DNA from: a virus
Length of the DNA: 33,225 bases
Direction: 5' to 3' (one strand)
IMG/VR virus record: IMGVR_UViG_3300009374_000020
Coordinates: 1 to 33,225 of that record
Made by a program: the position numbers and the translations under genes. Numbering within the stretch: position 1 is the first letter of the stretch; the number at the start of each line of letters is the position of its first letter. Of this stretch, positions 1-32,899 are shown piece after piece. Below the pieces are notes generated by a model that saw only the letters and a program-made list of their open reading frames with translations, had not been told where the DNA came from and did not search any database.

Positions 1-353
1 AAAAAAAAAAAAAAAAAAAAAAAAAAGAAGAATAAAAATAAAAATATAACTTATGATAATAACTCTCTCTTGAGTGTTGATAGTTATGTTCATGAATGAA
101 TGCTTTGCTTTTGACTTTTTCAAATGGGTATGGGAGGGGTCTACAGATTACAAATGTTCCTACAATTAAATCAGTTAATCAATATTATGCTTTGAAGGGA
201 TATATTGCTTTGTTCGAATTCTAAACAAAGGTGTATTAATGACACCAAATTGAGGCTTGTTTCCTAACATAATATGCATTAAATTCAGACAGCAAATTTA
301 ATAATAATATATTCATCTTGTCATAAGAGGGATGAATAAAAAATGAGGGAAGA
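1..353. other. Gene-free left end with A-tract
   Basis: No convincing gene lies here. The window opens with 26 consecutive A residues followed by more A-rich sequence, which could be a true molecule end, a homopolymer or an assembly edge. A copy of the dispersed 23-bp palindrome lies at 208-230. It is followed by an AAAGGTG motif and a four-codon ORF (ATG at 239, stop at 251), too short to call as a gene. A weak promoter-like pair (TTGAGG at 250, TATGCA at 273, 17-base spacing) could drive the first gene, but the match is poor and unsupported. Confidence 0.5.
208..230. repeat. Dispersed 23-bp palindrome, copy 1
   Basis: Arms CTTTGTTC and AAACAAAG flank a seven-base centre GAATTCT. One arm base departs from the consensus GAACAAAG. 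The copy lies upstream of the first gene of the rightward arm and contains overlapping TTCGAA and GAATTC. Confidence 0.9.
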
Positions 354-1965: not shown

Positions 1966-1988
1966 CTTTGTTCAGATTATGAACAAAG
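1966..1988. repeat. Dispersed 23-bp palindrome, copy 2
   Basis: Perfect 8-base arms CTTTGTTC and GAACAAAG flank AGATTAT. The copy lies 14 bases upstream of the tRNA gene. Confidence 0.92.
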
Positions 1989-2681: not shown

Positions 2682-2704
2682 CTCTGTTCATATTCCGAAC
2701 AAAG
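2682..2704. repeat. Dispersed 23-bp palindrome, copy 3
   Basis: Arms CTCTGTTC and GAACAAAG flank ATATTCC, with one mismatch at the third arm position. The copy lies between two genes on the + strand. Confidence 0.88.
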
Positions 2705-5920: not shown

Positions 5921-5943
5921 CTTTGTTCAGAATCCGAACAAAG
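5921..5943. repeat. Dispersed 23-bp palindrome, copy 4
   Basis: Perfect arms CTTTGTTC and GAACAAAG flank AGAATCC. The copy lies between the Sak4-like and DUF669-like genes. A small hairpin (CCTCT at 5959 with AGAGG at 5972) follows, just before the ribosome site of the next gene. Confidence 0.92.
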
Positions 5944-6479: not shown

Positions 6480-6698
6480 ATGCAAACTATTTTTAATAAA
6501 AAAGATAAGGTGGTTAGAATGAGTCCAGATGAATTAAAGGATATTATCATAGATGTTATAGGAAAATATCCTAATATGAATGTTAGTTCAATGAGTGCTA
6601 GGAAGATGGTAGCAAGAGAAATTATAATGGAGATTGCTCCTTTAGGTTTCTTTAATAAGTTTGAAGAAGATAATGAAAGGAAGAAAAAAGATGAGTGA
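6480..6698 (+). CDS. Small protein, unknown function
   Basis: A 72-residue lysine-rich protein of unknown function. An alternative start at ATG 6519 (residue 14, MSPDELKDII) follows AAGGTGG at better spacing than the AAGAAGGT directly abutting 6480, so the true product may be 59 residues. The remaining sequence is a helical region ending in a charged tail. It overlaps the following RHH gene by eight bases. Confidence 0.6.
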   Translation: MQTIFNKKDKVVRMSPDELKDIIIDVIGKYPNMNVSSMSARKMVAREIIMEIAPLGFFNKFEEDNERKKKDE

Positions 6699-6939
6699 AA
6701 TGAAAAGAATTGGTAGAGCAAGACTTTCTATTGATGTGAATGAGAAGCAGGAACAATTTCTCAGAGAATTTATACCTTGGGGAGTTAAGAATAAAGTATT
6801 TAGTGTTATTATAGATGATTTAATGAAGGCTGTTCAGAAACATGGGTCTAATGTGATAGGTGCTCTTGTTAGTAGACATATAACAACTATGAATTTTGTA
6901 AAAGAATTAGATGGAGAAAAAGATGGCAACGATAGATGA
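6691..6939 (+). CDS. Ribbon-helix-helix-like DNA-binding protein
   Basis: An 82-residue protein. Residues about 9-16 (RARLSIDV) would form the DNA-contacting beta-strand. They are followed by helix A (NEKQEQFLREF), a turn (IPWGVKN) and helix B (FSVIIDDLMKAVQKHG), the standard ribbon-helix-helix order. RHH dimers bind palindromic operators, which makes this a candidate binder for the dispersed 23-bp palindrome. That link is inference. The ATG at 6691 is chosen because GAAAGGAAG lies seven bases upstream; the upstream in-frame TTG and ATG lack such a site. Confidence 0.7.
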   Translation: MSEMKRIGRARLSIDVNEKQEQFLREFIPWGVKNKVFSVIIDDLMKAVQKHGSNVIGALVSRHITTMNFVKELDGEKDGNDR

Positions 6940-7141
6940 TATAAATATGAGTATATCTGATATGTCTGAGGAAGAAGCATTCAAACTTATTATGGCTGTT
7001 AGGAAGAGAAGGAGAATATTCAAAGGGAAGAATAAGAAGAAGCAACAAGCTAGGAAAAAATTAATAGATGTCAATAAGATGTTAACTGGAATGTCTGATG
7101 ATATGAAAAGAATGTTAATTGAAAAACTTGAAGGGAATTAA
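6923..7141 (+). CDS. Small basic protein, unknown function
   Basis: A 72-residue protein. An acidic N-terminal helix (SDMSEEEAFKLIMAVRKRRR) leads into a strongly basic patch (KGKNKKKQQARKK) and a final helix with DDMKRMLIEKLEGN. The charge pattern suggests nucleic-acid or protein binding. ATG 6923 has GGAG six bases upstream, whereas the in-frame ATG at 6911 has no ribosome site. It overlaps the RHH gene by 17 bases and precedes the methyltransferase gene by 17 bases, in the same operon. Confidence 0.65.
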   Translation: MATIDDINMSISDMSEEEAFKLIMAVRKRRRIFKGKNKKKQQARKKLIDVNKMLTGMSDDMKRMLIEKLEGN

Positions 7142-7158: not shown

Positions 7159-8523
7159 ATGAAATTACAAACAATAAAGACAGATAATGTAATTGTAAGA
7201 GATAGAGCAAGAGAAGATTTTGGGAACTTAAAAGAATTAATTGAATCATTTAAGAGAGAGGGAATAATCCAACCTCTTGCGGTTCAACAGACAGAGGAAG
7301 GATATATTCTTTTGGCAGGTGAGAGAAGATTAAGGGCTGCTAAAGAGAGTAAGATTGAAAATATTCCTGTTAGAATTTATGAAGAGGAATTATCAAATAT
7401 TGAAGTTAAGAGTATTGAACTTGCTGAGAATTTATATAGAAAGGATTTTGAGTGGCAGGAACAAGTTAAGTTGAAAAGTGATATTTGGGAGATTCAGCAG
7501 AAACTTCATGGAAAAAAGACATCTACAAGTCCTAATGCAAAGGGTGTTTCAAAGAGAGATGTTGCTTCTATTCTTGGAGATAGTCCTTCTGTTTTCACAG
7601 AAGATTTGAAGTTAGCAGAATTTATGAATGATATTCCTATATTAATGGAACAGAAGACAAAATCTGATGCTAAGAAAATGATGAAGAAATTAGAAAGAGA
7701 TGTTCAAACTTTTCATGCTGCTAAGGAATATAAGGAGAAAGAGGGAAAGAAGAGTATTAATAAAAAGATGAAAGGGATTATTGATAGTTATATTATTAAT
7801 GATTTCTTTAAGGGTGTGAAGAAGATAGGAGATAAAACAATAGATATTGTGGAGATTGACCCTCCTTATGCTATCAATCTAAAAGATCTAAAAAAGCAAT
7901 CAGGTGCTAAGACAGGAACACAAGAGTATAATGAAATTCCTATGGAAGAGTATGAAAAGTTTATGAAAAAAACTATTAAAGAATGTGTGAGAGTTATGAA
8001 GCAAGATAGTTGGTTACTTTGTTGGTTTGGTCCTGACCCTTGGTTTTCTATATTATGGAACATAATTAAAGATGAAGGTCTTGAAGGTATAGGAATCCCT
8101 GCTATTTGGTTTAAGGGAACTGGTCAGACAATGCAACCTAATTATTATATGGCTAATTCTTATGAAATGTTTTTCTATGCAAGGAAAGGAAAACCTGAAT
8201 TAAATGTAAAGGGAAGACCTAACGTCTTTCACTTTATGCCTGTCCCTCCTTCAAGAAAAATTCATCCTACAGAAAGACCTATTGAGATGATTTCTGAAAT
8301 CCTTAATGTTTTTGGAAGATTAGGTTCAACTGTTATGATACCCTTTCTTGGCTCTGGTAATACTATATTAGCAGCTAATAATAGAAAGATGAATGGCTTT
8401 GGTTTTGAGCTTTCTGAAACATATAAGAATAGATTTATTGAGAAAGTTAGTGGAATGAATATAATTGATTCTTTTAAGTCATATACAATTCCTGATAATC
8501 TTGATAAAAAGAAGGAAAGATAA
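7159..8523 (+). CDS. ParB-like/DNA methyltransferase fusion (beta-class, N6-adenine or N4-cytosine)
   Basis: A 454-residue two-domain protein. Residues 1-110 are a ParB/Srx-like nuclease domain with GERRLRAAK at 54-62 and ELAENLYRKD at 87-96. A helical, lysine-rich linker follows to about 205. The C-terminal half is an S-adenosylmethionine-dependent amino-methyltransferase: DPPY catalytic motif IV at 234-237, HPTERP at 369-374 and FLGSGNT motif I at 396-402. Motif IV before motif I marks the beta class. ParB-methylase fusions are known in phages and may protect or mark phage DNA. The target site cannot be read from sequence. The HNH gene follows two bases downstream, so the two may form a modification-linked pair. 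The gene contains only two CpG dinucleotides in 1365 bp. Confidence 0.88.
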   Translation: MKLQTIKTDNVIVRDRAREDFGNLKELIESFKREGIIQPLAVQQTEEGYILLAGERRLRAAKESKIENIPVRIYEEELSNIEVKSIELAENLYRKDFEWQEQVKLKSDIWEIQQKLHGKKTSTSPNAKGVSKRDVASILGDSPSVFTEDLKLAEFMNDIPILMEQKTKSDAKKMMKKLERDVQTFHAAKEYKEKEGKKSINKKMKGIIDSYIINDFFKGVKKIGDKTIDIVEIDPPYAINLKDLKKQSGAKTGTQEYNEIPMEEYEKFMKKTIKECVRVMKQDSWLLCWFGPDPWFSILWNIIKDEGLEGIGIPAIWFKGTGQTMQPNYYMANSYEMFFYARKGKPELNVKGRPNVFHFMPVPPSRKIHPTERPIEMISEILNVFGRLGSTVMIPFLGSGNTILAANNRKMNGFGFELSETYKNRFIEKVSGMNIIDSFKSYTIPDNLDKKKER

Positions 8524-9093: not shown

Positions 9094-9116
9094 CTTTGTT
9101 CAGAATTCGAACAAAG
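9094..9116. repeat. Dispersed 23-bp palindrome, copy 5
   Basis: Perfect arms CTTTGTTC and GAACAAAG flank AGAATTC, giving the commonest version of the repeat with overlapping GAATTC and TTCGAA. It lies upstream of the structured leader of the polymerase operon. TATAAT at 9085-9090 lies directly before it, which would put the palindrome at the transcription start, but no -35 box matches. Confidence 0.93.
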
Positions 9117-9243: not shown

Positions 9244-9438
9244 ATGATAGACATAAAGAATCTTGATGAAACTGTTATGCAATCTAAAACAGTTGAGCAT
9301 ATAATAAAATTTCTAATGTATGGAAATAATGGAAGGATTGAATATAAGAAGAGTAAGAAAAGATTAATAAACTATTTTTATGTATGTAGAAATAAAATAA
9401 ATAAAAGAAGAGGAGGAGTTAGTGCAAAGAATAATTGA
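9244..9438 (+). CDS. 64-residue basic protein, unknown function
   Basis: Small basic protein starting at ATG 9244 behind a strong AAAGGAGAAATAAA site. An in-frame ATG at 9160 lies inside the structured leader and has no ribosome site, so it is not used here. The sequence is helical then increasingly basic (EYKKSKKRLINYF, NKINKRRGG). The final 17 bases overlap the polymerase start, and the polymerase ribosome site (GAGGAGG) is inside this gene, indicating translational coupling. Function unknown; a polymerase accessory role is only a guess from position. Confidence 0.7.
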   Translation: MIDIKNLDETVMQSKTVEHIIKFLMYGNNGRIEYKKSKKRLINYFYVCRNKINKRRGGVSAKNN

Positions 9439-13055: not shown

Positions 13056-13078
13056 CTTTGTTCAGAATTCGAACAAAG
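13056..13078. repeat. Dispersed 23-bp palindrome, copy 6, between the convergent arms
   Basis: Perfect arms CTTTGTTC and GAACAAAG flank AGAATTC. This copy takes up most of the 42-bp gap between the convergent replication and structural operons. There is no T-run on either side, so it is not a standard intrinsic terminator. Confidence 0.93.
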
Positions 13079-16000: not shown

Positions 16001-16719
16001 GCAATCTTTGCAACTTTTCCTGGCTGTCTTTTGGCATAAGCGATTCCCATATCTTTCATAGCTTTTGTACCAATCTTTCTGAAGGTTGAGTTAAGAGCAC
16101 CAAAACCTAATCTTTCTGCAGCAAAAACAGTTGCTCCATATCCTGTTGCTATGATAGCCTCATGAGCTCCTGAAAGGTCTTTTCCTGTTTCCTCTTCAAA
16201 CGATTTAACAGCTCCTCTTCCCTCACCAGCTGCCATTAATCCATAGTGAGCAAGGACAGTTGGGACTGTTACAGTTTGTTGAGGTCCTGGAATCATCGCA
16301 GCAAAAGTTGGTGCAATTCCTCCTACAACACTTCCAAGAAATCTTGATACTCCAGGTCTAGTTGGACTTTCAACTGCAGACTCTGCTAAAATTTTAAGGG
16401 CATCTTTATGGTCACCAAAGAGTTCTTGATATGAAGCAGCTGGTTGAGCAACTGCTCCTTTATATACAGACCTTGAGAAATTTGTAAAAGCACCAATGCT
16501 CTCTTCTTCAGCTAACTGTTCTTGAATCATAATAGATTCTTTCAATACATCCTTTGTGAATGTTTGATAATCACCTAAATTGTAACTTTTAGACATCTCA
16601 TCAAAGAAAGTTATTCTCTTATCATCTTGAACAATATTTTGACTAAACTCAGAGAAAGTCCCTAAATTAAATTTACTCTGCCCTGCTTCATATAATCTAT
16701 TTAATCTAGATTCAGGCAT
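13087..16719 (-). CDS. Giant virion protein, probable ejected/internal protein
   Basis: A 1210-residue protein, last gene of the leftward structural operon. The N-terminal 120 residues are helical. Hydrophobic or glycine-rich stretches occur at about 125-190, 290-310 (GGYVGGLVLAGSMGS), 755-785 and 970-985. A charged coiled-coil-like region lies at about 340-420. The region around 920-990 (FFTPTFKIAMGKMYIG, then LIGWDLLMLALGF) resembles the large-polyvalent-protein-associated domains seen in very large podovirus internal proteins. Position after the glycine-zipper and peptidoglycan-binding proteins matches T7 gp16-like ejection proteins. No lytic transglycosylase motif was found. Start follows AAGGAAAACAAG. 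A role in DNA ejection is inference from size, membrane-active character and gene order. Confidence 0.75.
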   Translation of the reverse strand: MPESRLNRLYEAGQSKFNLGTFSEFSQNIVQDDKRITFFDEMSKSYNLGDYQTFTKDVLKESIMIQEQLAEEESIGAFTNFSRSVYKGAVAQPAASYQELFGDHKDALKILAESAVESPTRPGVSRFLGSVVGGIAPTFAAMIPGPQQTVTVPTVLAHYGLMAAGEGRGAVKSFEEETGKDLSGAHEAIIATGYGATVFAAERLGFGALNSTFRKIGTKAMKDMGIAYAKRQPGKVAKIAVTELGKLTNLSGMIEGGEEGLEQLMTNAIDATYDPNARTVRQMLHGVPESFLGGYVGGLVLAGSMGSVKAIDFKNVKKDFMEMAGEAETSFIIESDEFQNKMGEVTKGDEKYQNLLEDMEVTARKLKNSKSKEDGHYRKKLESKERKAKKEFFSYLQEVQAGVLKSQKKIKDPETSLTDPEGKQTRLGNLAKFSMNMLQGFVDNVDLQSRFNRINAQRTGENFKIMPSIQAHHEEYSLRTIRDIYKAFRKEGMSSKEANKAMNQLIFLYESKSKWQFFPKESKVRYQKAYDILHNYLESSLQEYKGLEGLTYGFVERMKIETLENIEKIKDRKTKKDTDLKDLKDLESILSRLDYIRYMPIPSAIWFANILKNKPKMAKKVLSLVGVKRRKTITIADIIADPENDIELGDIKLGDILASYGRNKGRDFAVLELLRAAEEDGLAFQKGEGVSKRKKIIHKKGFNTKKFVHAPKGAMFMKNYKLHPILAESIEDILTRTRNIGIISKGMNVAKMMAFWNPLFLPMYDTIQGFMIGAWTTYKLPLYMIQAIKDYWTKSDMYWRAKENGIASTPFNNPLQQTIGVAQAMSKAGGAWTHILRNLLVLDKGIALGTGMTVLMSPINIMKTIYNLSWKTAWILDGTVRQISFRYLKDKGYTDREAAQTAALYHGDYAGVPVATRQKLNRIFFTPTFKIAMGKMYIGMIKSFGQTINPTIKTPKQTRHHMLAFMRMFGILIGWDLLMLALGFDRDEFGRRYAKKVQTSEGEREAVLVWSGPHNMFLKYYSRWKAAFGPEVDNSLKHLLKSNSWEIHPVYRVASEIYNNKDASGKHIVPILYPSLKYGGIPKKELKIAEYILNNIISITKAMKDDIEDPEARELLNKELGQLFNMVIKPFSFAYTRLPKELKQLYGNHGLKRFFTTDLQTLKDDAVETGEFNEKALEDITNTLLLRIQEFNKMYDEQIFPTDNDEEPIY

Positions 16720-18728: not shown

Positions 18729-18751
18729 CTGTGTTCAGAATTCGAACAAAG
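18729..18751. repeat. Dispersed 23-bp palindrome, copy 7
   Basis: Arms CTGTGTTC and GAACAAAG flank AGAATTC, with one mismatch at the third arm position. The copy lies between the glycine-zipper gene and the peptidoglycan-binding gene on the leftward operon. Confidence 0.9.
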
Positions 18752-23322: not shown

Positions 23323-23541
23323 CTATCCTCTTATTGCTAAATCCATATCTGTTTCAAGAGATACAGATAATTCAACTCCATTAATCTTTGAATAACCCTG
23401 AGCATTTTTTGATTCAACTTCTCTATGATTAACATTAATCCACCTAATTTGAACATCTGTCTTTTCTTCAAAACTTTTTAGAATATTCTCAACTTTTTTC
23501 TGAGTATTCTCAATTTCTTTTTTTAACTTCTTTATTGTCAT
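23323..23541 (-). CDS. Small coiled-coil protein between capsid and adaptor
   Basis: A 72-residue protein. The first 30 residues form a lysine-rich coiled coil (KKLKKEIENTQKKVENILKS). The rest is a short beta-rich tail. I choose ATG 23541 because AAAGGTG lies eight bases upstream. The longer in-frame start at 23571 would lie inside palindrome copy 8. The AAAGG ribosome site is itself partly the 3' arm of that palindrome. Function unknown; its place suggests a head or connector assembly protein. Confidence 0.65.
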   Translation of the reverse strand: MTIKKLKKEIENTQKKVENILKSFEEKTDVQIRWINVNHREVESKNAQGYSKINGVELSVSLETDMDLAIRG

Positions 23542-23550
23542 AATATTCAC

Positions 23551-23573
23551 CTTTGTTCGAATTATGAACAAAG
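23551..23573. repeat. Dispersed 23-bp palindrome, copy 8, overlapping a ribosome site
   Basis: Perfect arms CTTTGTTC and GAACAAAG flank GAATTAT. In the leftward transcript, the 3' arm (ending CAAAG) continues into GTG to give the AAAGGTG ribosome site of the coiled-coil gene. It directly abuts the terminator-like hairpin after the capsid gene and supplies that hairpin's T-rich tail. Confidence 0.93.
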
Positions 23574-23596
23574 TGGGGAGGGGTTAATCTCCCCAC
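23567..23596 (-). terminator. Terminator-like hairpin after the major capsid gene
   Basis: On the - strand GTGGGGAG pairs perfectly with CTCCCCAC (arms 23589-23596 and 23573-23580) around an eight-base loop. It is followed by TTTGTTC, moderately T-rich. It lies 32 bases after the capsid stop and could cut transcription so that capsid mRNA exceeds downstream mRNA, as the terminator after T7 gene 10 does. The comparison is by position; termination is inferred. Confidence 0.75.
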
Positions 23597-23628
23597 CTTA
23601 TTCATTCACCTATCAATCAACAATCTGA

Positions 23629-24915
23629 TTAATCCGCAGGATTAGCTAAACCAACACCATTAAGATAACCAAAAGCAAGAGGATGATGGAATTCAAATCC
23701 ACCTTCAGTTAAATATTCTTCTTTTGAACCATCAACAGCCTGATATCCACCTTCTCTCTCACCAGTGTCTTTCTTAAAGAAAGTATCATCAATGTAGTTG
23801 AAAGCCATATTAGCAGGATCTACTATAACCATAGAGTTCCTGTTTGTGGATTCATAAGAGAACAGAGGATGTGTTTTCAGCATTAATACACCAAAGGGTG
23901 TAATCCACTCAGTTACTTTCATCCCATAACTACCAGAAGTTGGATTCAAGTTAATATGCCCACCTGCTTTTGCAAGCTTGTTAATTCCTAACAAAGCCCC
24001 AGAACCACAGTAAGCAATCTTCTCTTGAGAACCATACCTGAAAATTTGCTCAAGTTTCTCATCAAGCCAATCTTCTCCTCCACCTGCCCAAGTTGCTACA
24101 CCAGACTGTTTAGTATAATCACTAACATTATCTGATGCAAACTCTTTGATGAATGGGACAATTCCTTGAGTTGTTCTTTCAGGTTTACCATTATCTCCAG
24201 TCCCTTCAGTCTTAATACTCCAGAAAGCCATTTTCTCTAATTCAATTGAATGAAGTTCAAGAGCTTCCCTTTTAGACTCTTTATACTGGTCTTCTGTACG
24301 AAGTCTAGTTTTTCGAGCAGTACGAGTAATATCCAAAGGTGTTCTAATAATTTGTGTGTAATTATAGTATTTCACAGGGTCATATGAAATAGCAGCTGGA
24401 ATCACTCCACCTTCAGCATTGATATTACTAATTATCAATATGGTATCACACTCTGATAAATCTCCACTAGAAGAGTTATCATCAGCTTCTAATAATTTCA
24501 CAGCAATCTTTGAGCTAGCTCCATTTAATGTAACACTAGTTACCTTACCAACAACATCTACATCATGGTCACTAGCATCTCTTAAAAGAACTTGATGTCC
24601 TGCACGAATTTCTTGAGCCACAGCAAGAGCAACTTTAACATATACAGTATCTCCAGATACTCCACCAGATACATAAACATCTACTAAAGCACTATCTGTG
24701 TATACATTTGTTACAGCTCCACCCTGACTGGCAAGATTCTTAGTCCACCAATTAAACTCCGGGTCATCAACTTGACTACTCTTAATTTTCGACGCTAACG
24801 CCGTAAGAGGAGCCATTCCATTAGGATACAGATAAAGGATGGTTTCCCTAAAACTTTTCGGTCTTTGGTCAGTTACCCAATCACCTGTTCCTCTCATTCC
24901 AAGAAATGCACTCAT
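23629..24915 (-). CDS. Major capsid protein
   Basis: A 428-residue protein between the decoration/scaffold genes and the head-tail adaptor. It resembles DUF5309/SU10-type major capsid proteins: an N-terminal segment with YPNGMAPLTALASKI, FNWWTKNLASQGG, a central helical region (EALELHSIELEKMAFWSIKTE) and a C-terminal region with MVIVDPANMAFNYID. It would adopt the HK97 fold and form the icosahedral head. Start ATG 24915 is preferred to ATG 24921 because AAAGGAG sits seven bases upstream of 24915 but only one base upstream of 24921. It uses several CGN arginine codons (24290-24330) where most genes here use AGA/AGG, consistent with high expression. Confidence 0.85.
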   Translation of the reverse strand: MSAFLGMRGTGDWVTDQRPKSFRETILYLYPNGMAPLTALASKIKSSQVDDPEFNWWTKNLASQGGAVTNVYTDSALVDVYVSGGVSGDTVYVKVALAVAQEIRAGHQVLLRDASDHDVDVVGKVTSVTLNGASSKIAVKLLEADDNSSSGDLSECDTILIISNINAEGGVIPAAISYDPVKYYNYTQIIRTPLDITRTARKTRLRTEDQYKESKREALELHSIELEKMAFWSIKTEGTGDNGKPERTTQGIVPFIKEFASDNVSDYTKQSGVATWAGGGEDWLDEKLEQIFRYGSQEKIAYCGSGALLGINKLAKAGGHINLNPTSGSYGMKVTEWITPFGVLMLKTHPLFSYESTNRNSMVIVDPANMAFNYIDDTFFKKDTGEREGGYQAVDGSKEEYLTEGGFEFHHPLAFGYLNGVGLANPAD

Positions 24916-24952
24916 TTGCATTCTCCTTTCATTTTATTAATTAAACAATCCG

Positions 24953-25291
24953 TTATGCATGGTTAGATGCAAGCTCAAACCACTCATATCCATCACTATA
25001 GAGAATAGAATATTCAGCAGCAGCATCTAATGTAATATCAGTCAAGCTTGAATCATCTCCATTATCTTCAATAGTAATATCATCAGTATCAGATCTTGCA
25101 ACCATATAGATTGTATAGATTCTTCCAGCAGATTCAGCAACATCAGGAAGTGTTATTGTAAAAGCATCTCCAGTTGTTGAAGCTCTCACAACCTGCTGTT
25201 CCACACTAAGCGTAACAGTAGCTTCAGGGAATAATTCCCCTCCTGTGTTCATCAGAATCTCTTCGTATTTTTGTTTGTCATTTATAGGCAT
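24953..25291 (-). CDS. Probable head decoration/fibre protein
   Basis: A 112-residue beta-rich protein. After a short helical N-terminus it has alternating strands (EATVTLSVEQQVVRAS, FTITLPDV, RIYTIYMVA, DITIEDNGD) and ends in YSILYSDGYEWFELA, a pattern common to phage head-decoration and fibre-tip domains. It lies directly upstream of the capsid gene and downstream of the scaffold. The gene has its own ribosome site (AGGAGAAATAA). A surface decoration role is inferred from position and fold pattern. Confidence 0.65.
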   Translation of the reverse strand: MPINDKQKYEEILMNTGGELFPEATVTLSVEQQVVRASTTGDAFTITLPDVAESAGRIYTIYMVARSDTDDITIEDNGDDSSLTDITLDAAAEYSILYSDGYEWFELASNHA

Positions 25292-25300
25292 TTATTTCTC

Positions 25301-26164
25301 CTATCCTATTAAATCATTAATTTCACCTTGAAGGGCTGAAACCTTTTTCTTTCTTTTCCTTTCATCACTCCTATTTCCAGAAGGTGAAGCAAAAGCAGGT
25401 TTTTTACCCTTCCTTCCCTTTTCATTAATTGCCTTAGCATTAGCTTTAATTCCTAATCTTTTCTTTGACTCTTTAGCCACACCCTCCATTAATTTAGGTG
25501 TGTCCCAATCAGGATTATTAGCTCTCAACTCTGTAGCAATCATTCCTACAAATTGCTTATATTCTCTTAAGTCAGGGTTAACCTGGTAGAACTCATTAAT
25601 AGCATTCTGTAATTCCATTCTTGAAGAAACAAGTCTTGTTACAACTTCAGGAGTTTGCTGAAGGCTTTGTTTAGTAGATTCTTCAATAGCATCATTCTTT
25701 GCTCTCTCATATACCTGTGTTAATAGACTATTCAAAGCCTCAGGTGTTAATAGAGCATCATTGAATTTATCATCATCTACAAACTTAAATTCCTTCTTCT
25801 TATCCTTTTTCCTTTCCTCTTCCTTTTTCTGAGGAGAAGGCTCAGGAATTCGATTTCCTGCAGTTTCTTCTAACAGTTTTCTGAGACGTTCATTTTCTTT
25901 CTGAAGATTATCTTCATCCTTTTCATCTTCATCCTTTTCATTTTCATCATCTTCTTCAGAATCTTCATCTTCTTCAGAATCTTCAGAATCTTTTTTATCT
26001 AATTCTTCATCTTCTTGTTCTTCTTCATCTTTCTGTTCTTCATCTTCCTGTTCTTTCTGTTCTTCTTCCTCTTCATCTTCATCTTTTTTAATATCTTCAT
26101 CTTCCTCAGATGGAGAAGCAAGATCTTCAAGAAGGTCATCTATCTCTTTATTAATATCGGGCAT
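25301..26164 (-). CDS. Acidic scaffolding protein
   Basis: A 287-residue protein. Residues about 16-92 are an extreme Asp/Glu/Lys low-complexity tract with repeated EDE, EEQ and SEED units. A coiled coil follows (NLQKENERLRKLLEETA), then a helical region with LTPEALNSLLTQVYERAK, and a basic C-terminus with RKRKKK. Acidic scaffolds with a basic capsid-binding tail are typical of podovirus assembly, and it lies between portal and capsid genes as expected. It would guide procapsid formation and then leave. The repetitive GAA/GAT codons also produce artefactual reading frames on the opposite strand. Confidence 0.85.
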   Translation of the reverse strand: MPDINKEIDDLLEDLASPSEEDEDIKKDEDEEEEEQKEQEDEEQKDEEEQEDEELDKKDSEDSEEDEDSEEDDENEKDEDEKDEDNLQKENERLRKLLEETAGNRIPEPSPQKKEEERKKDKKKEFKFVDDDKFNDALLTPEALNSLLTQVYERAKNDAIEESTKQSLQQTPEVVTRLVSSRMELQNAINEFYQVNPDLREYKQFVGMIATELRANNPDWDTPKLMEGVAKESKKRLGIKANAKAINEKGRKGKKPAFASPSGNRSDERKRKKKVSALQGEINDLIG

Positions 26165-26195
26165 TTTGTAGTCCTCTCATTATTTTATTATTTGA

Positions 26196-26444
26196 TTATT
26201 TCTTCCTACTTTCTTTAATATCATCTTCTTGCAATTTAATATCTTCAATTGCTAAATCAGGAAGATCTATAAGATTTTCAATCTCCATAATCATCCCTTG
26301 AAGACGATAAATTAAAGTAGGATTAGTTTCTTCTACCATCTTATTCATCATGAGGTTCTTTCTTTTTTCAAGAGCCTCTTCAACGAAAAACTTCCAAACT
26401 TTATTTAGTTTAAATTCTTGTATATCTCTCACACTTGTAGTCAT
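26196..26444 (-). CDS. Small helical protein between portal and scaffold
   Basis: An 82-residue almost entirely helical protein (FKLNKVWKFFVEEALEKRKN, then IYRLQGMIMEIENLIDL, and a charged tail). The start at 26444 follows AAAGGAGAACAATT. The first five bases of that ribosome site are the 3' arm of palindrome copy 9. The function is unknown. Position suggests a head-assembly accessory. Confidence 0.7.
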   Translation of the reverse strand: MTTSVRDIQEFKLNKVWKFFVEEALEKRKNLMMNKMVEETNPTLIYRLQGMIMEIENLIDLPDLAIEDIKLQEDDIKESRKK

Positions 26445-26454
26445 AATTGTTCTC

Positions 26455-26477
26455 CTTTGTTCAGAATCTGAACACAG
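26455..26477. repeat. Dispersed 23-bp palindrome, copy 9, overlapping a ribosome site
   Basis: Arms CTTTGTTC and GAACACAG flank AGAATCT, with one mismatch at the third arm position. Read on the transcribed - strand the 3' arm is intact and runs into GAG, forming the AAAGGAG ribosome site of the 26196-26444 gene. Confidence 0.92.
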
Positions 26478-28439
26478 TTACATCCCACCCATACCTTCTT
26501 GTGGCATAGGAATAAGGTTTCCTTTATCAACTTCTTGTTGAACACCTTCATCAGGCATAACTTGTGTTGGTTTCTTAATAAAATCTTCAACATTCTTTGC
26601 ACCCATCTGCCTAGCTACATGCTTAAAGATTCTACTCATATCAAGTGTTTGTGATATTTCAGGACTTCCTGCAAAAACCTGAAGAAGCTGTACCCATAAA
26701 TCTACAGGCTCCCCTCCTGGCATACTCCCATCATGAGGTATAACATCATAATCTACATTAATATCAAGAGGGCTAATTTTAACTCTATCTCCTTGAACAC
26801 CTAATTCTGTTTTAATGTTATCATCCCAATCACCTATAACTTTCGCATAAGTATCTTGACTCATTAATTGCTGGGTATGTGAAGCAAACATTCTTGCAAG
26901 AGGTTGCATCAGCTGAAGACCAATTATCTTTGCTGTCTTTTCTAGTTTAGATAAGGCAGATGTTCTAGCATCCCTAGCCTCAGTTGCACTTCTTCTCTCT
27001 CCACCTGTTCTCATAATTCCTTGAAGAATATCAGTCGCTCCAGATGACTTTGAAATCAAATCAGATATAAATGAAACATCTCTTAAGTGACCTGAAGTAA
27101 CATCATTAACTTGAAGCTGTTTTACACCCTGATCTATCAGACCTCTTCCCCAGAAAGCCTTCCTCAGTCTAATTGTTTTTCCAGGTCTTGGGCTTTTCAA
27201 ATCAAAGATATTAATAACAGAAGGATCTACAATCATCATATCATTGATAGCTTTCCTCACATTAGCAATATGACTTGAAAATAGCCAATCAGATGTTTCC
27301 TGAAGAGGATATATGGTTTCAAGTTTTGATATAGGTGAAGTACTATAACCATCATAATCAGATGAAGCAACAGCAACTGGATACTGATTATGGTCTAATC
27401 CAAGAGATCTTGCTTCAATAACAACTTCATCAGATGCAACTGTAAACATCCATTTTTCAGGATATTCCCCACTCCCAACTTTCCAATCTTTAGGAATGAT
27501 TGTAACATACATTCTTATATATTCAATAGGTCTTGTTGTATTAGATGAAGGTGTATCAGATACATCTCTCTGTCTTGCTGATTTCTCAGCTGATGTTGTT
27601 ACAGTCCTACAAAGTCCATCAGATAAATGTTGAAGATACTTAACATTAAATATATCTCCATCTCCTCTCTTCTCTTTAGATAGAAGAGTCATGATATTCT
27701 CTTTCTCAATCCACCCAACAAATTCTCCTTTTTGAACATCATGAGCTGCAATATTAGGGTCTGGGAGGTATGAGTAAGGGTCTATGTTCCTAACATTATT
27801 CCCTTCAAATAATAAACTCTCCTCAGTATTATCTCTTGATATTCCTGTTGGAGCAAATTTTCCAAGAATGTTTGAGAAAAATCCTTCTTCCTTTATAACA
27901 GTCTTAGTTCCCCAAAGTTCATCCCAGTAAGGTGAAACTGCTCCAAAGCCGTATGCAAAGTTATCTCTCCATGCAGTATGAAGATTAAGTCCTACACCAA
28001 ATCTTGTTATATGTTTATTAATTAGAAGTTCAAGAAGAGCACATCCTCCAACATCTTCAGGTCCTTGTCCTTCATACCTAAAGATTGGATTCTGAATAAA
28101 TGCAGCTGTTAGGTAGGTTAAAAGAGTTTCAAGAGTTGCATAACTAACTGGAACAATAATAGGATTTGTCTTAAATTTATCTTTCTTCTCATCAACATCT
28201 TCAGGTGTTATGTATGTTGTTAGAGTTCTATCAATCTGTTGCCAACTTGAATGCTTCTGACTAATCTTATCATAACTCTCTCTAGCCCTATCAAGAATTC
28301 TATCTCTAATCCTATCATGTTCTTTACTCCCAGGCTTCAGATTAACACCTTCAGGATAATCATAGTCATAGTTAACATTATTCAAATTAACATGACTCAT
28401 CCCTGTTCCTGTTAATCCTCCTCTAATTACATGTGGCAT
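26478..28439 (-). CDS. Portal protein
   Basis: A 653-residue podovirus portal. N-terminal helices with SSWQQIDRTLTTYI, then PVSYATLETLLTYLTAAF and NPIFRYEGQGPED, which match the portal clip/stem region. A long middle part includes WTENIMTLLSK-like helices and a C-terminal helical domain (RRSATEARDARTSALSKLEK, LMQPLARMFASHTQQL). It lies between the terminase/beta-rich genes and the scaffold. Portals form the 12-subunit channel through which DNA is packaged and ejected. The start follows AGGAGGAAAT. Its stop is directly followed by palindrome copy 9. Confidence 0.85.
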   Translation of the reverse strand: MPHVIRGGLTGTGMSHVNLNNVNYDYDYPEGVNLKPGSKEHDRIRDRILDRARESYDKISQKHSSWQQIDRTLTTYITPEDVDEKKDKFKTNPIIVPVSYATLETLLTYLTAAFIQNPIFRYEGQGPEDVGGCALLELLINKHITRFGVGLNLHTAWRDNFAYGFGAVSPYWDELWGTKTVIKEEGFFSNILGKFAPTGISRDNTEESLLFEGNNVRNIDPYSYLPDPNIAAHDVQKGEFVGWIEKENIMTLLSKEKRGDGDIFNVKYLQHLSDGLCRTVTTSAEKSARQRDVSDTPSSNTTRPIEYIRMYVTIIPKDWKVGSGEYPEKWMFTVASDEVVIEARSLGLDHNQYPVAVASSDYDGYSTSPISKLETIYPLQETSDWLFSSHIANVRKAINDMMIVDPSVINIFDLKSPRPGKTIRLRKAFWGRGLIDQGVKQLQVNDVTSGHLRDVSFISDLISKSSGATDILQGIMRTGGERRSATEARDARTSALSKLEKTAKIIGLQLMQPLARMFASHTQQLMSQDTYAKVIGDWDDNIKTELGVQGDRVKISPLDINVDYDVIPHDGSMPGGEPVDLWVQLLQVFAGSPEISQTLDMSRIFKHVARQMGAKNVEDFIKKPTQVMPDEGVQQEVDKGNLIPMPQEGMGGM

Positions 28440-28447
28440 ATTTCCTC

Positions 28448-29125
28448 CTAAACTTTCACAACCGTAAAGTTTGCTTCTTTAATTGTTATATCTCCAACCC
28501 CTGAGGTATTCCTAACTTTAACATTTACATATTCATTAGATGTTCCCATTGTATAGAGCATTTGAAGATGAACAGTTACATCAGTTGCATCTGCATTAAC
28601 TTTTTGTTTTGATTTTGTCTCAAGAGAAATAACATCAAAACAGAATTCAAATATATCTCCAGCTGTTTCAGCTCTAAAAGTCAGAGAGCAAGAAATTAAA
28701 TATGTGAAGTTATCTGATGTTATTGATATACCTGTTGCAAAACAAGTTACACCTATTTCAACTCCCGTAGAAAAATTTGAAATAGTATACCATTGATTTT
28801 GTATTAATATAGATATAGCAGTTGTATTTCCTGTTATGTATAATTCTCCTGCCTCAGTATCATAATCTCCATCTAATGAAATTGTAACAGTTCCATCCCC
28901 ATCATCACCCACTTGAATAGGAGAAGTTCCTGCAATAAAATTAGCTAAATTAGATATAATATCCAAAGATTTATCAGCTGCAACTTTAACTATTTTTCCT
29001 GCTGTAAGTTCATCAATAATATGATTAGCTGCTTTTGTAACTCCATCTGTTTCAACAGCATAATCAGCAGAATCTTGATAAAGATAAGGACCTATTCCTG
29101 AACCTTTTACCCACCTTTGAGTCAT
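28448..29125 (-). CDS. Beta-rich minor virion protein
   Basis: A 225-residue protein starting in an ATGA overlap with the terminase gene. The first 75 residues include GIGPYLYQDSADYAVETDG and helical segments. The rest is a beta-sandwich-like repeat of strands (YLISCSLTFRAETAGDI, VHLQMLYTMGTS, EYVNVKVRN), ending in FTVVKV. This pattern resembles phage fibre/decoration jelly-roll domains. No lytic or enzymatic motif is visible. Its place between TerL and portal genes suggests a head fibre or attachment accessory; this is inference. Confidence 0.65.
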   Translation of the reverse strand: MTQRWVKGSGIGPYLYQDSADYAVETDGVTKAANHIIDELTAGKIVKVAADKSLDIISNLANFIAGTSPIQVGDDGDGTVTISLDGDYDTEAGELYITGNTTAISILIQNQWYTISNFSTGVEIGVTCFATGISITSDNFTYLISCSLTFRAETAGDIFEFCFDVISLETKSKQKVNADATDVTVHLQMLYTMGTSNEYVNVKVRNTSGVGDITIKEANFTVVKV

Positions 29126-30729
29126 ACTTGACTCCCTTCAAAATATGTAGGAGTTGGACAAGTTTCATAATTCTCCCAATTAATCTTATCTTTTCTATCT
29201 CCCTCATACATATCTAATAATTCTTTATATTCATCCTCAGGATCTCCTGCAAATCCTCCAGGCATAAAGTATGTAAGGGACATTTCCATCAACTCCACAA
29301 TATATGCAGCTGCATCCATAATATCCCATCTCTTCGATTTCGGAAATCCTAAAAGCTGTTTTTCATAAGCCCCACAACCTACCTCATTATGATATATTAA
29401 TCCTTGTCTATAATATGAAACAAGAGAAGCAACCCTTGCTTTCTTTCCTCCATGTAATCCAGAGAATTCACCCTTTCCAGATCTTGCTTTCAGCCATACA
29501 AGGTCAAAATTATATCCTAACCTAATCATCTCATTCCTCAGAGGATGCTTAATAAACTCTTCAAGTCCTGTTACCTCAACAGCAAGAGTTCTTGAACCAT
29601 ATCTCATACATGTATTAAAAGCATCAGTATATAATTGCTCAGGATGATAAAATTCTCCTCTTGCTTCCCTCATATACATAGCTCCTGTTTCAGAATCGAT
29701 ACTCCATACAACAATTCCAGATTGAGCATTATGTAACTTTGTTGTCTTAGCAGGATCTATTATAACAACATGAGCCATTGATGATTTCCTATCAATGAAT
29801 TTTTTATCTCCTTCCTGATAATACTGAAAATACTCTGCACTAAACGAAGCATCTTCCTTAGATATAGGAATACTCTGATATTCTCTTGCAAAGACATCCA
29901 TAATCTTTTCTCTTCGATGCCTTTTCAACTCATTATCAAGATCTTTTTGAGATACAAAAGTTGGAGCAAGAGTATGATACTCATCATCACAAATACTTAA
30001 CCTTAAGCCATCCCAATCATCTGACTCTAAGAGGTGTTCAATTAAACTATCTTCATGCTTCACAGTATCAATATATATGTATCTCCAATCTTTCCCAATC
30101 ATTGGTTTAGCTTTCTCAACATCTCCAGTAAACCAAATCAATCTTTTCTTCCTTTGATCTTCATTATCAAGGGTATCTGTATCTTCAAGGTCATCTATGA
30201 TAAATAAATCAGGTCTATATCTAATCCAATTCTGTCCCCTGATTTGCTGACCACTTCCTCTAGGAACAATAATAGTATGTCCATTAGCTACCCATGTTTT
30301 CTTAGAGAACATTTTAGACTCATCCTTTCTAAGGTCAAGAGAAGATTCCCTAATATGCCCAAAAATCTGTGATACACCATCTGCAGTTAATAATTCCATC
30401 TTAATATTCTCAGTCTGCATCTCAGCTGATGTTGCAGAATTAGATATATAATCAATAAATCTCTTATCTCTATAAAGGATTGACTTAGCAGCAACAGTTC
30501 TTGCAATTGTTGTTTTCCCAATTCCTCTAGGAGCAGCTATTACAATCTTATTCCCTCCTTCATCAATCAAGTCAAAAATCTGGTCATGGAGGGGGCTGAA
30601 TTCTGCATTAAATGTATCTGGAAAGAAAGTCTTTGCAAACAACTTTGTAGACCGATAACATTCTACAAGAATATCATCAAGAGTAGAATCTCCTGTCATA
30701 AGAGATTTATCTGGGTCTATTTGTTTCAA
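29122..30729 (-). CDS. Terminase large subunit (TerL)
   Basis: A 535-residue packaging motor. Walker A APRGIGKTT lies at residues 66-74 and Walker B LFIIDDLED at 175-183. The nuclease domain shows VVIIDPAKT (Asp325), AVEVTG (Glu385) and WDIMDAAAY (Asp469/Asp472). TerL pumps DNA into the procapsid and cuts concatemers. No terminase small subunit was recognised in the window, so it may be unusual, very small or outside. The start is probably TTG at 30729, overlapping the previous stop as TTGA with weak ribosome signal; an in-frame ATG lies at 30699 but also lacks a good site. Confidence 0.9.
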   Translation of the reverse strand: MKQIDPDKSLMTGDSTLDDILVECYRSTKLFAKTFFPDTFNAEFSPLHDQIFDLIDEGGNKIVIAAPRGIGKTTIARTVAAKSILYRDKRFIDYISNSATSAEMQTENIKMELLTADGVSQIFGHIRESSLDLRKDESKMFSKKTWVANGHTIIVPRGSGQQIRGQNWIRYRPDLFIIDDLEDTDTLDNEDQRKKRLIWFTGDVEKAKPMIGKDWRYIYIDTVKHEDSLIEHLLESDDWDGLRLSICDDEYHTLAPTFVSQKDLDNELKRHRREKIMDVFAREYQSIPISKEDASFSAEYFQYYQEGDKKFIDRKSSMAHVVIIDPAKTTKLHNAQSGIVVWSIDSETGAMYMREARGEFYHPEQLYTDAFNTCMRYGSRTLAVEVTGLEEFIKHPLRNEMIRLGYNFDLVWLKARSGKGEFSGLHGGKKARVASLVSYYRQGLIYHNEVGCGAYEKQLLGFPKSKRWDIMDAAAYIVELMEMSLTYFMPGGFAGDPEDEYKELLDMYEGDRKDKINWENYETCPTPTYFEGSQV

Positions 30730-30872
30730 CTTTTCGGCTCACTAACTTTAATAATTTCAATAGTAATTTCATCTTGAAAGGTAAAATCTTCATCCTCCAC
30801 TCCTTCATCTGAAAGAATAATTTTCCCTTCATCAACAATCGCAAGATAATATCCTTCATAATCTCTACTCAT
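30726..30872 (-). CDS. 48-residue acidic protein ahead of terminase
   Basis: Small ORF between tailspike and terminase genes. It begins five bases after the tailspike stop and ends in a TTGA overlap with the terminase start. The product is acidic and beta/loop-like (YYLAIVDEGKIILSDE, then EITIEIIKV). It has a modest upstream AAGAGG-type site. Tight packing between two real genes supports it. A terminase accessory role is possible from position but not shown. Confidence 0.65.
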   Translation of the reverse strand: MSRDYEGYYLAIVDEGKIILSDEGVEDEDFTFQDEITIEIIKVSEPKS

Positions 30873-30877
30873 AATAA

Positions 30878-32473
30878 TCAACCAACCTCTTTTATAAGAG
30901 TAACTTTTCCTCTCATTAATTTAGTAACATTACTTGAAGCATCAACAACCTCTAAATCATAAACACCATAGGTAAAGTCATAGCTTGAAGTATCAGCTGC
31001 AGGAATATCTATCTCAATAGTTCCATTAGCCCCCCCAAGAGTTATCTCACTTCCTGATGTTAAGGAATCAATTTGTGTTCCTCCAATCCTATCATAAATG
31101 CTCATAGTTGCTGAATAATTAGTTAAATCAACAGCATCTTCATTAGAGTCTTTCCATAAAAGGGTTCTCTTAAAATTAGCACCTTGCTCAATATCAAGAT
31201 TAAATTTTCCTGCAGTCATATTAATTTTCCTTTCATATCTCTCAGTAATTATTATATTAGATGTTTCAACAGTCAGAGTTGTATTTTTATCATATCTATC
31301 ATCAATAACAGAATAATCTCCATCCCATCTAACAAAGAATTTTCCTCCTTTGGCTTCCAGAGTTATAACATCATAAGGATAAGCATATTGACTAACTCCA
31401 TTAATCGTAACAGTTACTCTATCTGTAATTGTATCAAGATTATGTCCACCCCCATAACTTCCAACATCTGATGTATCTTCTCCATGTGCAGGAGGTATAT
31501 GAGCATCATTCTCTCCTGCTCCCCCACCCCACAAATCAATACAAGGACTATCTGATTGAAGAGTAAAGTCATAAATATCTGGATTAATAAATTTAGGATA
31601 CATTGAATAAGAATGACTTCTAATTACCCAATGAGCATCATTAGGATTTACAAAGGCACTTGCAGGAAGTTCCATATCACATCCATATAAATACTCTGTC
31701 CCCTTTCCTAGTGTTCCTAAACCTACAGATCTTATTGTATATCTAGCAGGAAATCCTCTCCTCCCATCTCCACAAGCATAATAGATATTATTCCATATTG
31801 AAAGAGATACAAAAGTAGCAGGTGTTCCCGATTGATAGTGAACAAATATTCCCATAGTCATCCTATAGAAAACATTCTGATATACTTCAAGAATGCTCTG
31901 ATGATGATAATTCTGTCTTCTATATATACCTACAATAATATTCTCAGGCTCAGGTTGATAATAATATCCTTTAACCTTATCATTAATTGGAGTATAATCT
32001 CCAACAAAATCACAGTTAGATATATAAACATGAAGAAAATTATCTGATGCTCCTTGAACATCAATACTTCTATAAATTGTTTTATTAAGAAATAAAGATA
32101 CAAGATTAAAATTAGTATGAGCAAGAAATATAATATTCCTTATTTCCACACTTTTTGTAATAAGAAGATTTCCATCATCACTAATATAAAATAAAACTGA
32201 CCCATCAAAAATAGGTTTCTTTCCATCAGTAGGATATGGTTGAACAGTTACATTATGATAACTATCAACTGAATCAATAAAAATCCATTGAGGTTCATAT
32301 GACTCACAAGAATAAGTAAGTCCACCCTTAATATAAACATCTACATCAAGATTAGTTGTATTAGCAACTCCACTTCCTGGTGCAAATACCTTATCAAGAG
32401 TTTTATAAGGAGCTTCAATAGAACCATCTCCTGTTGTATCATCCCCTAAAATTCCATGAATATAGACATCCAT
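30878..32473 (-). CDS. Beta-helix tailspike/fibre protein with C-terminal phage tail domain
   Basis: A 531-residue protein. The N-terminus has GDDTTGDGSIEAPYKTL at residues 10-26, the entry motif of right-handed beta-helix proteins, followed by beta-helix-like repeats with many Asn and aromatic residues to about 330. A linker follows (TVTINGVSQYAYPYD). Residues about 419-531, beginning MTAGKFNLDIEQGANFKRTL, match a widespread free-standing tail-associated domain. That domain has its own in-frame ATG (31219) behind AAAGGAAAATTAAT, so a shorter 113-residue product may also be made. The protein probably recognises a host surface glycan or protein. No clear lyase residues were identified. Confidence 0.8.
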   Translation of the reverse strand: MDVYIHGILGDDTTGDGSIEAPYKTLDKVFAPGSGVANTTNLDVDVYIKGGLTYSCESYEPQWIFIDSVDSYHNVTVQPYPTDGKKPIFDGSVLFYISDDGNLLITKSVEIRNIIFLAHTNFNLVSLFLNKTIYRSIDVQGASDNFLHVYISNCDFVGDYTPINDKVKGYYYQPEPENIIVGIYRRQNYHHQSILEVYQNVFYRMTMGIFVHYQSGTPATFVSLSIWNNIYYACGDGRRGFPARYTIRSVGLGTLGKGTEYLYGCDMELPASAFVNPNDAHWVIRSHSYSMYPKFINPDIYDFTLQSDSPCIDLWGGGAGENDAHIPPAHGEDTSDVGSYGGGHNLDTITDRVTVTINGVSQYAYPYDVITLEAKGGKFFVRWDGDYSVIDDRYDKNTTLTVETSNIIITERYERKINMTAGKFNLDIEQGANFKRTLLWKDSNEDAVDLTNYSATMSIYDRIGGTQIDSLTSGSEITLGGANGTIEIDIPAADTSSYDFTYGVYDLEVVDASSNVTKLMRGKVTLIKEVG

Positions 32474-32479
32474 AATCTA

Positions 32480-32899
32480 TCAACCCTTTGTTCGAATTCC
32501 GAACATAGTTAATGTTTCAGCCAAATCCCTTGCTCTTCTTGGTGTCTGTTTTGCCCACTTACTATCAAGCATCTCTTTCCCAGCTTTCTCCCATTCTTTC
32601 TTCTTCAACAGTTCAATAGTCTTAACAAACTGCATAAAGCCATTTAATCCAATCTGATATATCATCTCAACAATCACATCTTGAACAGTTTGAGGCATCT
32701 CTCTAAACCACCAGAAACTTTCATAGCACCTAACAGTAGTATTAGCCAATTTCCGCTCCAAAATGATGGAGGCAATATCCTCATCCAGCCGTAGGTCTTT
32801 TATTGCGAAGCCGTAGCCGATGGTGAGATTCCCTTCAGAGTCATTGTAAACCCTGTTCCTGAATCCCTCATGCTTCTTGATTGAATCAATCAGATTCAT
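32480..32899 (-). CDS. Endolysin, T4-type lysozyme (GH24)
   Basis: A 139-residue lysozyme of glycoside hydrolase family 24. The catalytic triad is at T4 positions: Glu11 in HEGFR, Asp20 in YNDSEG and Thr26 in LTIGYG. It cleaves peptidoglycan at the end of infection. The holin-like gene overlaps by one base (TAATG), a usual holin-endolysin pair. Its last six residues before the final Gly are encoded by palindrome copy 10. The first 50 residues use CpG-containing codons, whereas the remainder has almost none, suggesting a mosaic gene. Confidence 0.92.
   Translation of the reverse strand: MNLIDSIKKHEGFRNRVYNDSEGNLTIGYGFAIKDLRLDEDIASIILERKLANTTVRCYESFWWFREMPQTVQDVIVEMIYQIGLNGFMQFVKTIELLKKKEWEKAGKEMLDSKWAKQTPRRARDLAETLTMFGIRTKG
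32486..32508. repeat. Dispersed 23-bp palindrome, copy 10, inside the lysozyme gene end
   Basis: Arms CTTTGTTC and GAACATAG flank GAATTCC, with one mismatch at the third arm position. Unlike the other copies it lies within coding sequence, specifying lysozyme residues near the C-terminus. In the leftward transcript its intact 3' arm runs into GG, giving the AAAGGG ribosome-site-like sequence before the tailspike ATG. Confidence 0.92.

Follow-up and report, generated by a model that had tools for sequence, protein, structure and literature searches.

We analyzed a 33,225-nucleotide stretch of viral DNA (the window: positions 1 to 33,225 of IMG/VR virus record IMGVR_UViG_3300009374_000020) that contains ten copies of the palindrome CTTTGTTC-N7-GAACAAAG. 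All ten were found by a pattern scan, and none has more than one mismatch; when three mismatches are allowed, the chance level is 0.36 copies per shuffle, with a maximum of three. The window also encodes a ParB protein (a CTPase domain plus a helix-turn-helix, HTH) fused to an N6/N4 DNA methyltransferase (7159..8523, + strand), which we propose as the palindrome binder. That the palindromes are sites of this ParB-methyltransferase is well supported by comparison of sequences across related phages, and we regard it as very probable. Their best explanation is likely to be that they are parS-like sites, at which the phage would load its own ParB-methyltransferase to cover the whole genome.

Site families in related phages

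A search with the capsid protein returned about 80 related IMG/VR contigs (31-65% identity), and the terminase returned one distant relative. Nineteen full relatives (~54-64% capsid identity) carry multi-copy palindromes with the same layout and other bases, and matching site families are also present in many partial relatives. The families were defined by iterated position weight matrices (PWMs); small loci whose information content was low were assigned no operator. Markov shuffles served as palindrome controls, since a reversed sequence retains its palindromes. Examples of the sites are CTATGGTAATTAAATTACCATAG (G012), CTATGTTACATAATGTAACATAG (G004), CTATGGGGA-type (G009), CTTTGTTTAAAATTTAAACAAAG (G015), AGACTGTTTAA-type (G014), and AGATATATAAATTTTTTATTTATCT (G020); Desulfofustis phage LS06-2018-MD01 has a family of its own, CTATGTCCCAA.

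The relatives have 7-23 sites per genome. In nearly all of them one site lies 3′ of the capsid gene, which indicates that positions are kept while bases change. An exact scan of IMG/VR for CTTTGTTC-N7-GAACAAAG gave 29 scattered single matches; the relatives use other bases. We found no palindrome family in G003 (a 34-kb record of similar capsid identity) or in the more distant Microcystis phage Mel-JY34, Vibrio phage VS-ABTNL-3, and Pseudomonas phage PaP2.

Covariation of site bases with the recognition helix

Positions within a half-site are numbered d1 to d12, starting next to the central base and moving outward. To form the covariation set, 80 extra ParB-methyltransferase loci were collected and 49 ParBs of less than 75% identity were compared. 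In 12 of these d6 is G, and in 12 the recognition helix has His at position 2. The two characters match in 47 of the 49 proteins, and the His column ranks first among 428 ParB columns for d6. With the HTH columns left out of the tree, each character changes about seven times. None of 3,245 tree-simulated labels, matched for frequency and change count, reaches 47 (the maximum is 43). Helix position 1 ranks highest for d4, with Asp accompanying G, and position +7 ranks highest for d11, with Asp accompanying C and Ala accompanying A or G as the outer base.

Two held-out loci follow these rules. L259 (TGATGA) has Asp-Gln, the Asp being predicted from d4 = G, and L262 (outer AG) has Ala at +7. In Caulobacter ParB, residue R173 contacts parS base 1 and sets specificity, and a Gln at that place in Noc reads A (PMC7383237); L259 has Gln at the equivalent residue and A at d6.

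Among the full genomes, the ParB His column separates those with TGG sites. No column that does so was found in the major capsid protein, TerL, PolA, portal, exonuclease, tail, ssb, or AAA proteins. One helicase column and one column of a small ribbon-helix-helix (RHH)-like protein also separate the TGG genomes, each in a set with only three of them.

The ParB-methyltransferase

The N-terminal part of the protein has the hallmarks of ParB. It matches ParB_N (E 5e-14) and TIGR00180 (67.7 bits; cut-off 58.45), and a profile search of the PDB returned Noc, Spo0J, ParB, and KorB. The CTP-motif residues G54, R56, R57, E90, N91, and R94 are invariant among homologues, giving the Box I-III motifs. 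In a full-length model (predicted local distance difference test, pLDDT, 83.7), residues 203-438 match DNA methyltransferases and the N-terminal part matches ParB/Noc. Methyltransferases dominated the structure search with the whole protein, and the N-terminal 200 residues were folded separately. This second model (pLDDT 90.5) has ParB, Noc, and KorB as its best structural matches; of residues 3-185, 158 align to Caulobacter ParB 6t1f (Z 12.4, root-mean-square deviation 3.2). The recognition helix starts at S142-P143-S144, and the modelled fold together with the recognition-helix covariation indicates a central HTH that is predicted to read a palindrome.

An N6/N4 methyltransferase stands where the C-terminal dimerisation domain of ParB would be, making the protein a ParB fusion and not a canonical ParB. 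Its motifs are DPPY and, as the FxGxG motif, FLGSGN, from which we predict an N6/N4 methyltransferase activity. DPPY is retained in 98 of 103 homologues.

Spacing and placement of the sites

Across 20 genomes, 205 of 289 sites lie in non-coding gaps, though such gaps make up only 4-10% of the genomes. Spacing is more even than that of random intergenic gaps (coefficient of variation 0.28-0.80, against about 1), with p<0.05 in 16 of 19 genomes and p<0.07 in 18 of 19; the combined Fisher p is ~1e-22, to be read with the relatedness of the genomes, which are not fully independent. Median intervals are mostly 2-4 kb, and the longest interval is usually 5-9 kb.

Placement inside genes depends on gene length. 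Genes of 0.9-2.5 kb are avoided (6 sites in 346 kb, 0.017/kb), and genes of at least 3.9 kb have 0.192 sites per kb; 12 of 17 such giant genes hold a site, often near the middle. Even spacing and sites in giant genes fit a rule that avoids long stretches without a site, and control of promoters or of translation needs neither.

Proposed mechanism

We propose that one HTH of the ParB-methyltransferase reads each half-site. Its homology to ParB, Noc, and KorB suggests that the protein would load at the site as a nucleotide-bound clamp and slide along the DNA; other ParB-like fusions are described as binding CTP, ATP, or GTP (PMC12704722). With a site about every 3 kb, sliding clamps could cover the whole phage genome. 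KorB slides ~1.5 kb from its sites (PMC11790492), and at that distance sites ~3 kb apart would leave almost none of the genome uncovered. The attached methyltransferase would then act on DNA bearing the phage's own sites. Each phage lineage has altered its site and its recognition helix in concert, and the system is private as a result. The sequences themselves show the site families, the covariation, the spacing, and the folds and motifs of ParB and methyltransferase. From sequence and homology we infer binding, nucleotide-dependent sliding, and methylation of phage DNA; the loaded clamp may serve either methylation of self DNA or silencing similar to that by KorB. A tentative extension, somewhat less likely than not, is self-addressed DNA marking: the clamp would load only at the phage's private palindromes and move from one to the next with its methyltransferase across the genome, so that only DNA with such sites would be methylated and protected. 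Phages would diversify address and reader in step, leaving competitors nothing to gain.

Several observations weigh against assigning the palindromes to the ParB-methyltransferase, or against its use as a methylating clamp. Two loci break the d6 rule: L182 has His with TGTCCA, and L254 has Arg with CGG. Six operators used for the covariation were assigned manually on the basis of earlier clustering, and the His position was equated with Caulobacter ParB R173 by way of the GKS motif and not by superposition. Genes were called with a simple open reading frame (ORF) caller, and both the gene calls and the site thresholds are our approximations. L174 and L175 have homologues of the ParB-methyltransferase, yet no multi-copy palindrome was found in them. 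The methyltransferase motif is altered in G001 (DPDW), G021 (DTDY), and L173 (DFPY). These three lineages retain their palindromes, which means that methylation cannot be the sole use of the sites. Finally, the presence or absence of palindromes is fitted even better by the RHH-like protein than by the ParB-methyltransferase.

Other explanations for the palindromes

The three lineages with altered catalytic motifs also raise the possibility that occupancy itself matters, as in silencing by KorB. The same pairing of ParB and site could then act in silencing or timing, with clamps that slide to promoters and repress early or late transcription, the methyltransferase being secondary and the small RHH-like protein perhaps locking the clamps. 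KorB is a precedent: together with its partner KorA, this sliding clamp of the ParB family represses promoters at distances of up to 1.5 kb (PMC11790492). The RHH-like gene lies beside that of the ParB-methyltransferase and occurs in all 21 genomes with palindromes. No ParA partner was found either: ParA (PF13614) was above cut-off in 0 of 20 records, which may be incomplete, and the positive control was found in 14 of 14 genomes. However, promoter control does not call for even spacing, and it fits poorly with sites between convergent gene ends (copy 6 of the window) or in the middle of giant genes. We consider this explanation possible, though on the unlikely side.

A less probable alternative is a separate repressor that uses the palindromes as operators or stoperators. 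The likeliest such repressor is the RHH-like protein (6661..6939, + strand; its true start is uncertain), whose gene lies just before that of the ParB-methyltransferase. The conserved families scanned include two candidate binders, this protein and the ParB-methyltransferase. Homologues of the RHH-like protein are found in 21 of 21 genomes with palindromes and in 0 of 4 without, a distribution exactly that of the palindromes, and in several genomes a palindrome is located just upstream of its gene. Diverging palindrome specificity is also typical of phage operators. Yet the putative DNA-contacting strand, R-x-[ST]-x-[DE], shows hardly any change as the sites vary, and no RHH column comes near the signal of the ParB recognition helix for d6 or d4. 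The RHH fold was not confirmed by a Pfam model. We find a separate repressor improbable; the RHH-like neighbour may instead be a partner of the ParB-methyltransferase.

Transcription terminators or recombination junctions for the exchange of gene modules would suit sites that are mostly intergenic, module boundaries being natural places of exchange, but these are very improbable functions here: the stems are AT-rich and lack both a T run and covariation of the arms, terminator-like stems occur separately (upstream of copy 8), and recombination accounts neither for the recognition-helix covariation nor for sites in giant genes.

Overlap with Shine-Dalgarno sequences

The original prediction concerned the late genes, where an arm of the palindrome doubles as part of the Shine-Dalgarno (SD) sequence, and proposed that pairing of the arms as RNA would hide the ribosome site, so that one element acts on both DNA and translation. 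The overlap itself holds. Read on the minus strand, copy 8 continues as GAACAAAG-GTGAATATT-ATG, copy 9 as GAACAAAG-GAGAACAATT-ATG, and copy 10 as GAACAAAG-GGTTGATAGATT-ATG, and the arm is shared with the SD sequences AAAGGTG, AAAGGAG, and AAAGGG, respectively. As had been noted, copies 9 and 10 carry their mismatch in the 5′ (distal) arm, where it falls at d9. This position is degenerate among the relatives, where it is paired in 48% of sites.

At seven of the ten window copies no gene starts beside the arm; these include copies 2-6 and the fourth late copy (18729). In the relatives, 47 of 287 sites overlap an SD, and they belong to families with purines at the end of the palindrome; an ORF starts within 22 nucleotides of 157 of the 287.

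The proposed pairing of arms is contradicted by the lack of covariation across 289 sites in 20 genomes. Pairing as RNA should have brought compensating changes, but at all 12 positions the frequency of arm pairing equals or falls short of what independent half-sites would give (z -3.9 to +0.5), and in most sites of G012 one arm reads TGG and the other TGT. Compared with shuffles, the copy 9 leader shows no gain in folding (z -0.01) and the copy 10 leader only a modest one (z -1.9). In the leader of copy 8 (z -4.3) a separate terminator-like stem dominates the fold; folded in isolation, the copy 8 hairpin has -8.3 kcal/mol. The palindromes of G014 and G020 end in TCT, which cannot be an SD sequence; the genes that follow them use a separate downstream SD, and no SD overlaps were found there. 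Such a separation of ribosome site and palindrome in related phages is what the original prediction had named as counting against it.

A trace of tuning on the ribosome side may exist at the free base d9, which is a purine there in 29 of 55 cases against 16 of 55 in the other arm (p=0.02, uncorrected). An A-only version of the comparison is not significant (p=0.29), and we take this as weak evidence, at most, that the base is tuned on that side. A hairpin hiding the SD of late genes could draw on the three window overlaps, the 47 sites of relatives, the isolated copy 8 stem, and this slight purine bias, but the missing arm covariation, the leader folds, the majority of sites without SD overlap, and the TCT families make it the least credible explanation we considered. 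What survives of the original prediction is a DNA element that shares bases with some SD sequences, and control of translation by a hairpin does not. The SD overlap is real but incidental, a side effect of placement, because the sites fit between a stop codon and a ribosome site and end in the purine-rich AAAG.

Palindrome copies and neighboring genes in the window

Copies 1-5 belong to the rightward early region and copies 7-10 to the leftward late region. Copy 1 (208..230, one mismatch) precedes the early operon and is followed by AAAGGTG-TATTA-ATG, and the frame that results has four codons only. Copy 2 (1966..1988) is directly upstream of a tRNA-Met(CAT) gene, and copy 3 (2682..2704) begins at the first base past a TAA stop. 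Copy 4 (5921..5943) lies between genes for an AAA-ATPase and a DUF669 protein, copy 5 (9094..9116) is upstream of the PolA gene, and copy 6 (13056..13078) is between two convergent gene ends, with no gene start. In the late region, the arm of copy 7 (18729..18751) is not at an SD, and a separate SD is found downstream. Copy 8 (23551..23573) is 3′ of the major capsid gene, its arm leading into the SD of the gene that starts at 23541. Copy 9 (26455..26477) occupies the gap from the stop of a portal-like gene to the SD of the gene starting at 26444. Copy 10 (32486..32508) leads into the SD of the gene starting at 32473. It overlaps the upstream ORF, which reads through the palindrome at its 3′ end; this copy is not strictly intergenic. 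Of 12 PWM matches in the window, two (at 25726 and 29413) were discarded as weak and within coding sequence.

The single tRNA-Met (CAT) gene (2003-2075) begins 15 bp past copy 2. The DNA polymerase A gene (9422-11881) encodes an 819 amino acid protein with an N-terminal uracil-DNA-glycosylase-like domain and a 3′-5′ exonuclease domain. A strong terminator-like stem (23574-23600) is present just 3′ of the capsid gene, adjoining copy 8.

A gene for a small basic protein (6911..7141, + strand) is located between the RHH-like and ParB-methyltransferase genes in the same operon. A second RHH-like family, FAM23, is encoded near the start of the early operon (354-818) and has homologues in 18 of the 25 genomes compared. 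The contig opens with a run of 26 A (1-26), possibly an artefact of assembly or library preparation. At 33 kb the window is probably partial, as full-looking relatives are mostly 43-52 kb.

Comparison with known systems

Like the sites described here, the stoperators of Cluster A and the Start-Associated Sequences of Cluster K are short repeats spread across a phage genome near gene boundaries, and the Cluster K sequences overlap the ribosome site (PMC3203893), as some window sites do. However, stoperators are asymmetric and oriented (PMC4351075), and Start-Associated Sequences are non-palindromic and tied to start codons; the window sites are palindromic and have no such tie.

Chromosomal ParB-parS and Noc with its binding sites (NBS) share the CTPase domain and HTH with the window protein. 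The parS sequence is TGTTTCAC-GTGAAACA, a palindrome with a TGTT-type half-site at a nearly equal distance from the dyad. The window sites differ from parS in odd length, with one central base, and in longer outer arms (CT/AG). The phage system differs further in that ParA was not found in the records searched and in the methyltransferase that replaces the C-terminal dimerisation domain. Specificity likewise comes from recognition-helix residues such as 173 in the ParB and Noc systems (PMC7383237).

KorB and its OB operators on plasmid RK2 (IncP) are also close in kind: a ParB-family HTH clamp on palindromes, with multiple sites as in the window, that slides, acts on transcription, and works with a small DNA-binding partner (PMC11790492). 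KorB has no methyltransferase, and the portion of that report available to us describes neither even genome-wide spacing nor a lineage-wise change of site and helix.

Fusions of a ParB CTPase to an N6/N4 methyltransferase are enriched in phages (PNAS 2025, PMC12704722) and have the same domain combination as the window protein. In the sections of that report we could draw on, their function is left open, an anti-defence role being one possibility, and neither DNA sites nor a code of specificity are given. The fusions are thus already known, and their predicted sites and specificity code appear to be new as far as we could find; a literature search of incomplete coverage found nothing that links the fusions or the Cluster O palindromes (below) to ParB sites or a specificity code. 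Such fusions are frequent in phages, and here sequence comparison points to their target sites and to the individual residues behind specificity. Coverage of the genome by clamps, which the even spacing suggests, is a directly testable function, and dozens of naturally matched protein-site pairs form a data set for the coevolution of ParB readers and their sites.

Cluster O mycobacteriophages such as Corndog have 34 copies of a 17-bp repeat, TGTTCGG-N3-CCGAACA, of unknown function (PMC4351075). These are also genome-wide palindromes, and their half-site TGTTC is at the same distance from the dyad as in the window sites. Mycobacterium phage Firecracker (L264) encodes a ParB-like protein, gp94 (14529-16037), that aligns with the ParB part of the family (probability 95.9) and has an HTH-like segment. 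Cluster O differs in host and phage type, in a ParB-like protein without a methyltransferase, and in having about a third of its repeats in genes. The same pairing of a ParB with its own sites may nevertheless apply to these phages, and we offer it as a hypothesis for their unexplained palindromes.

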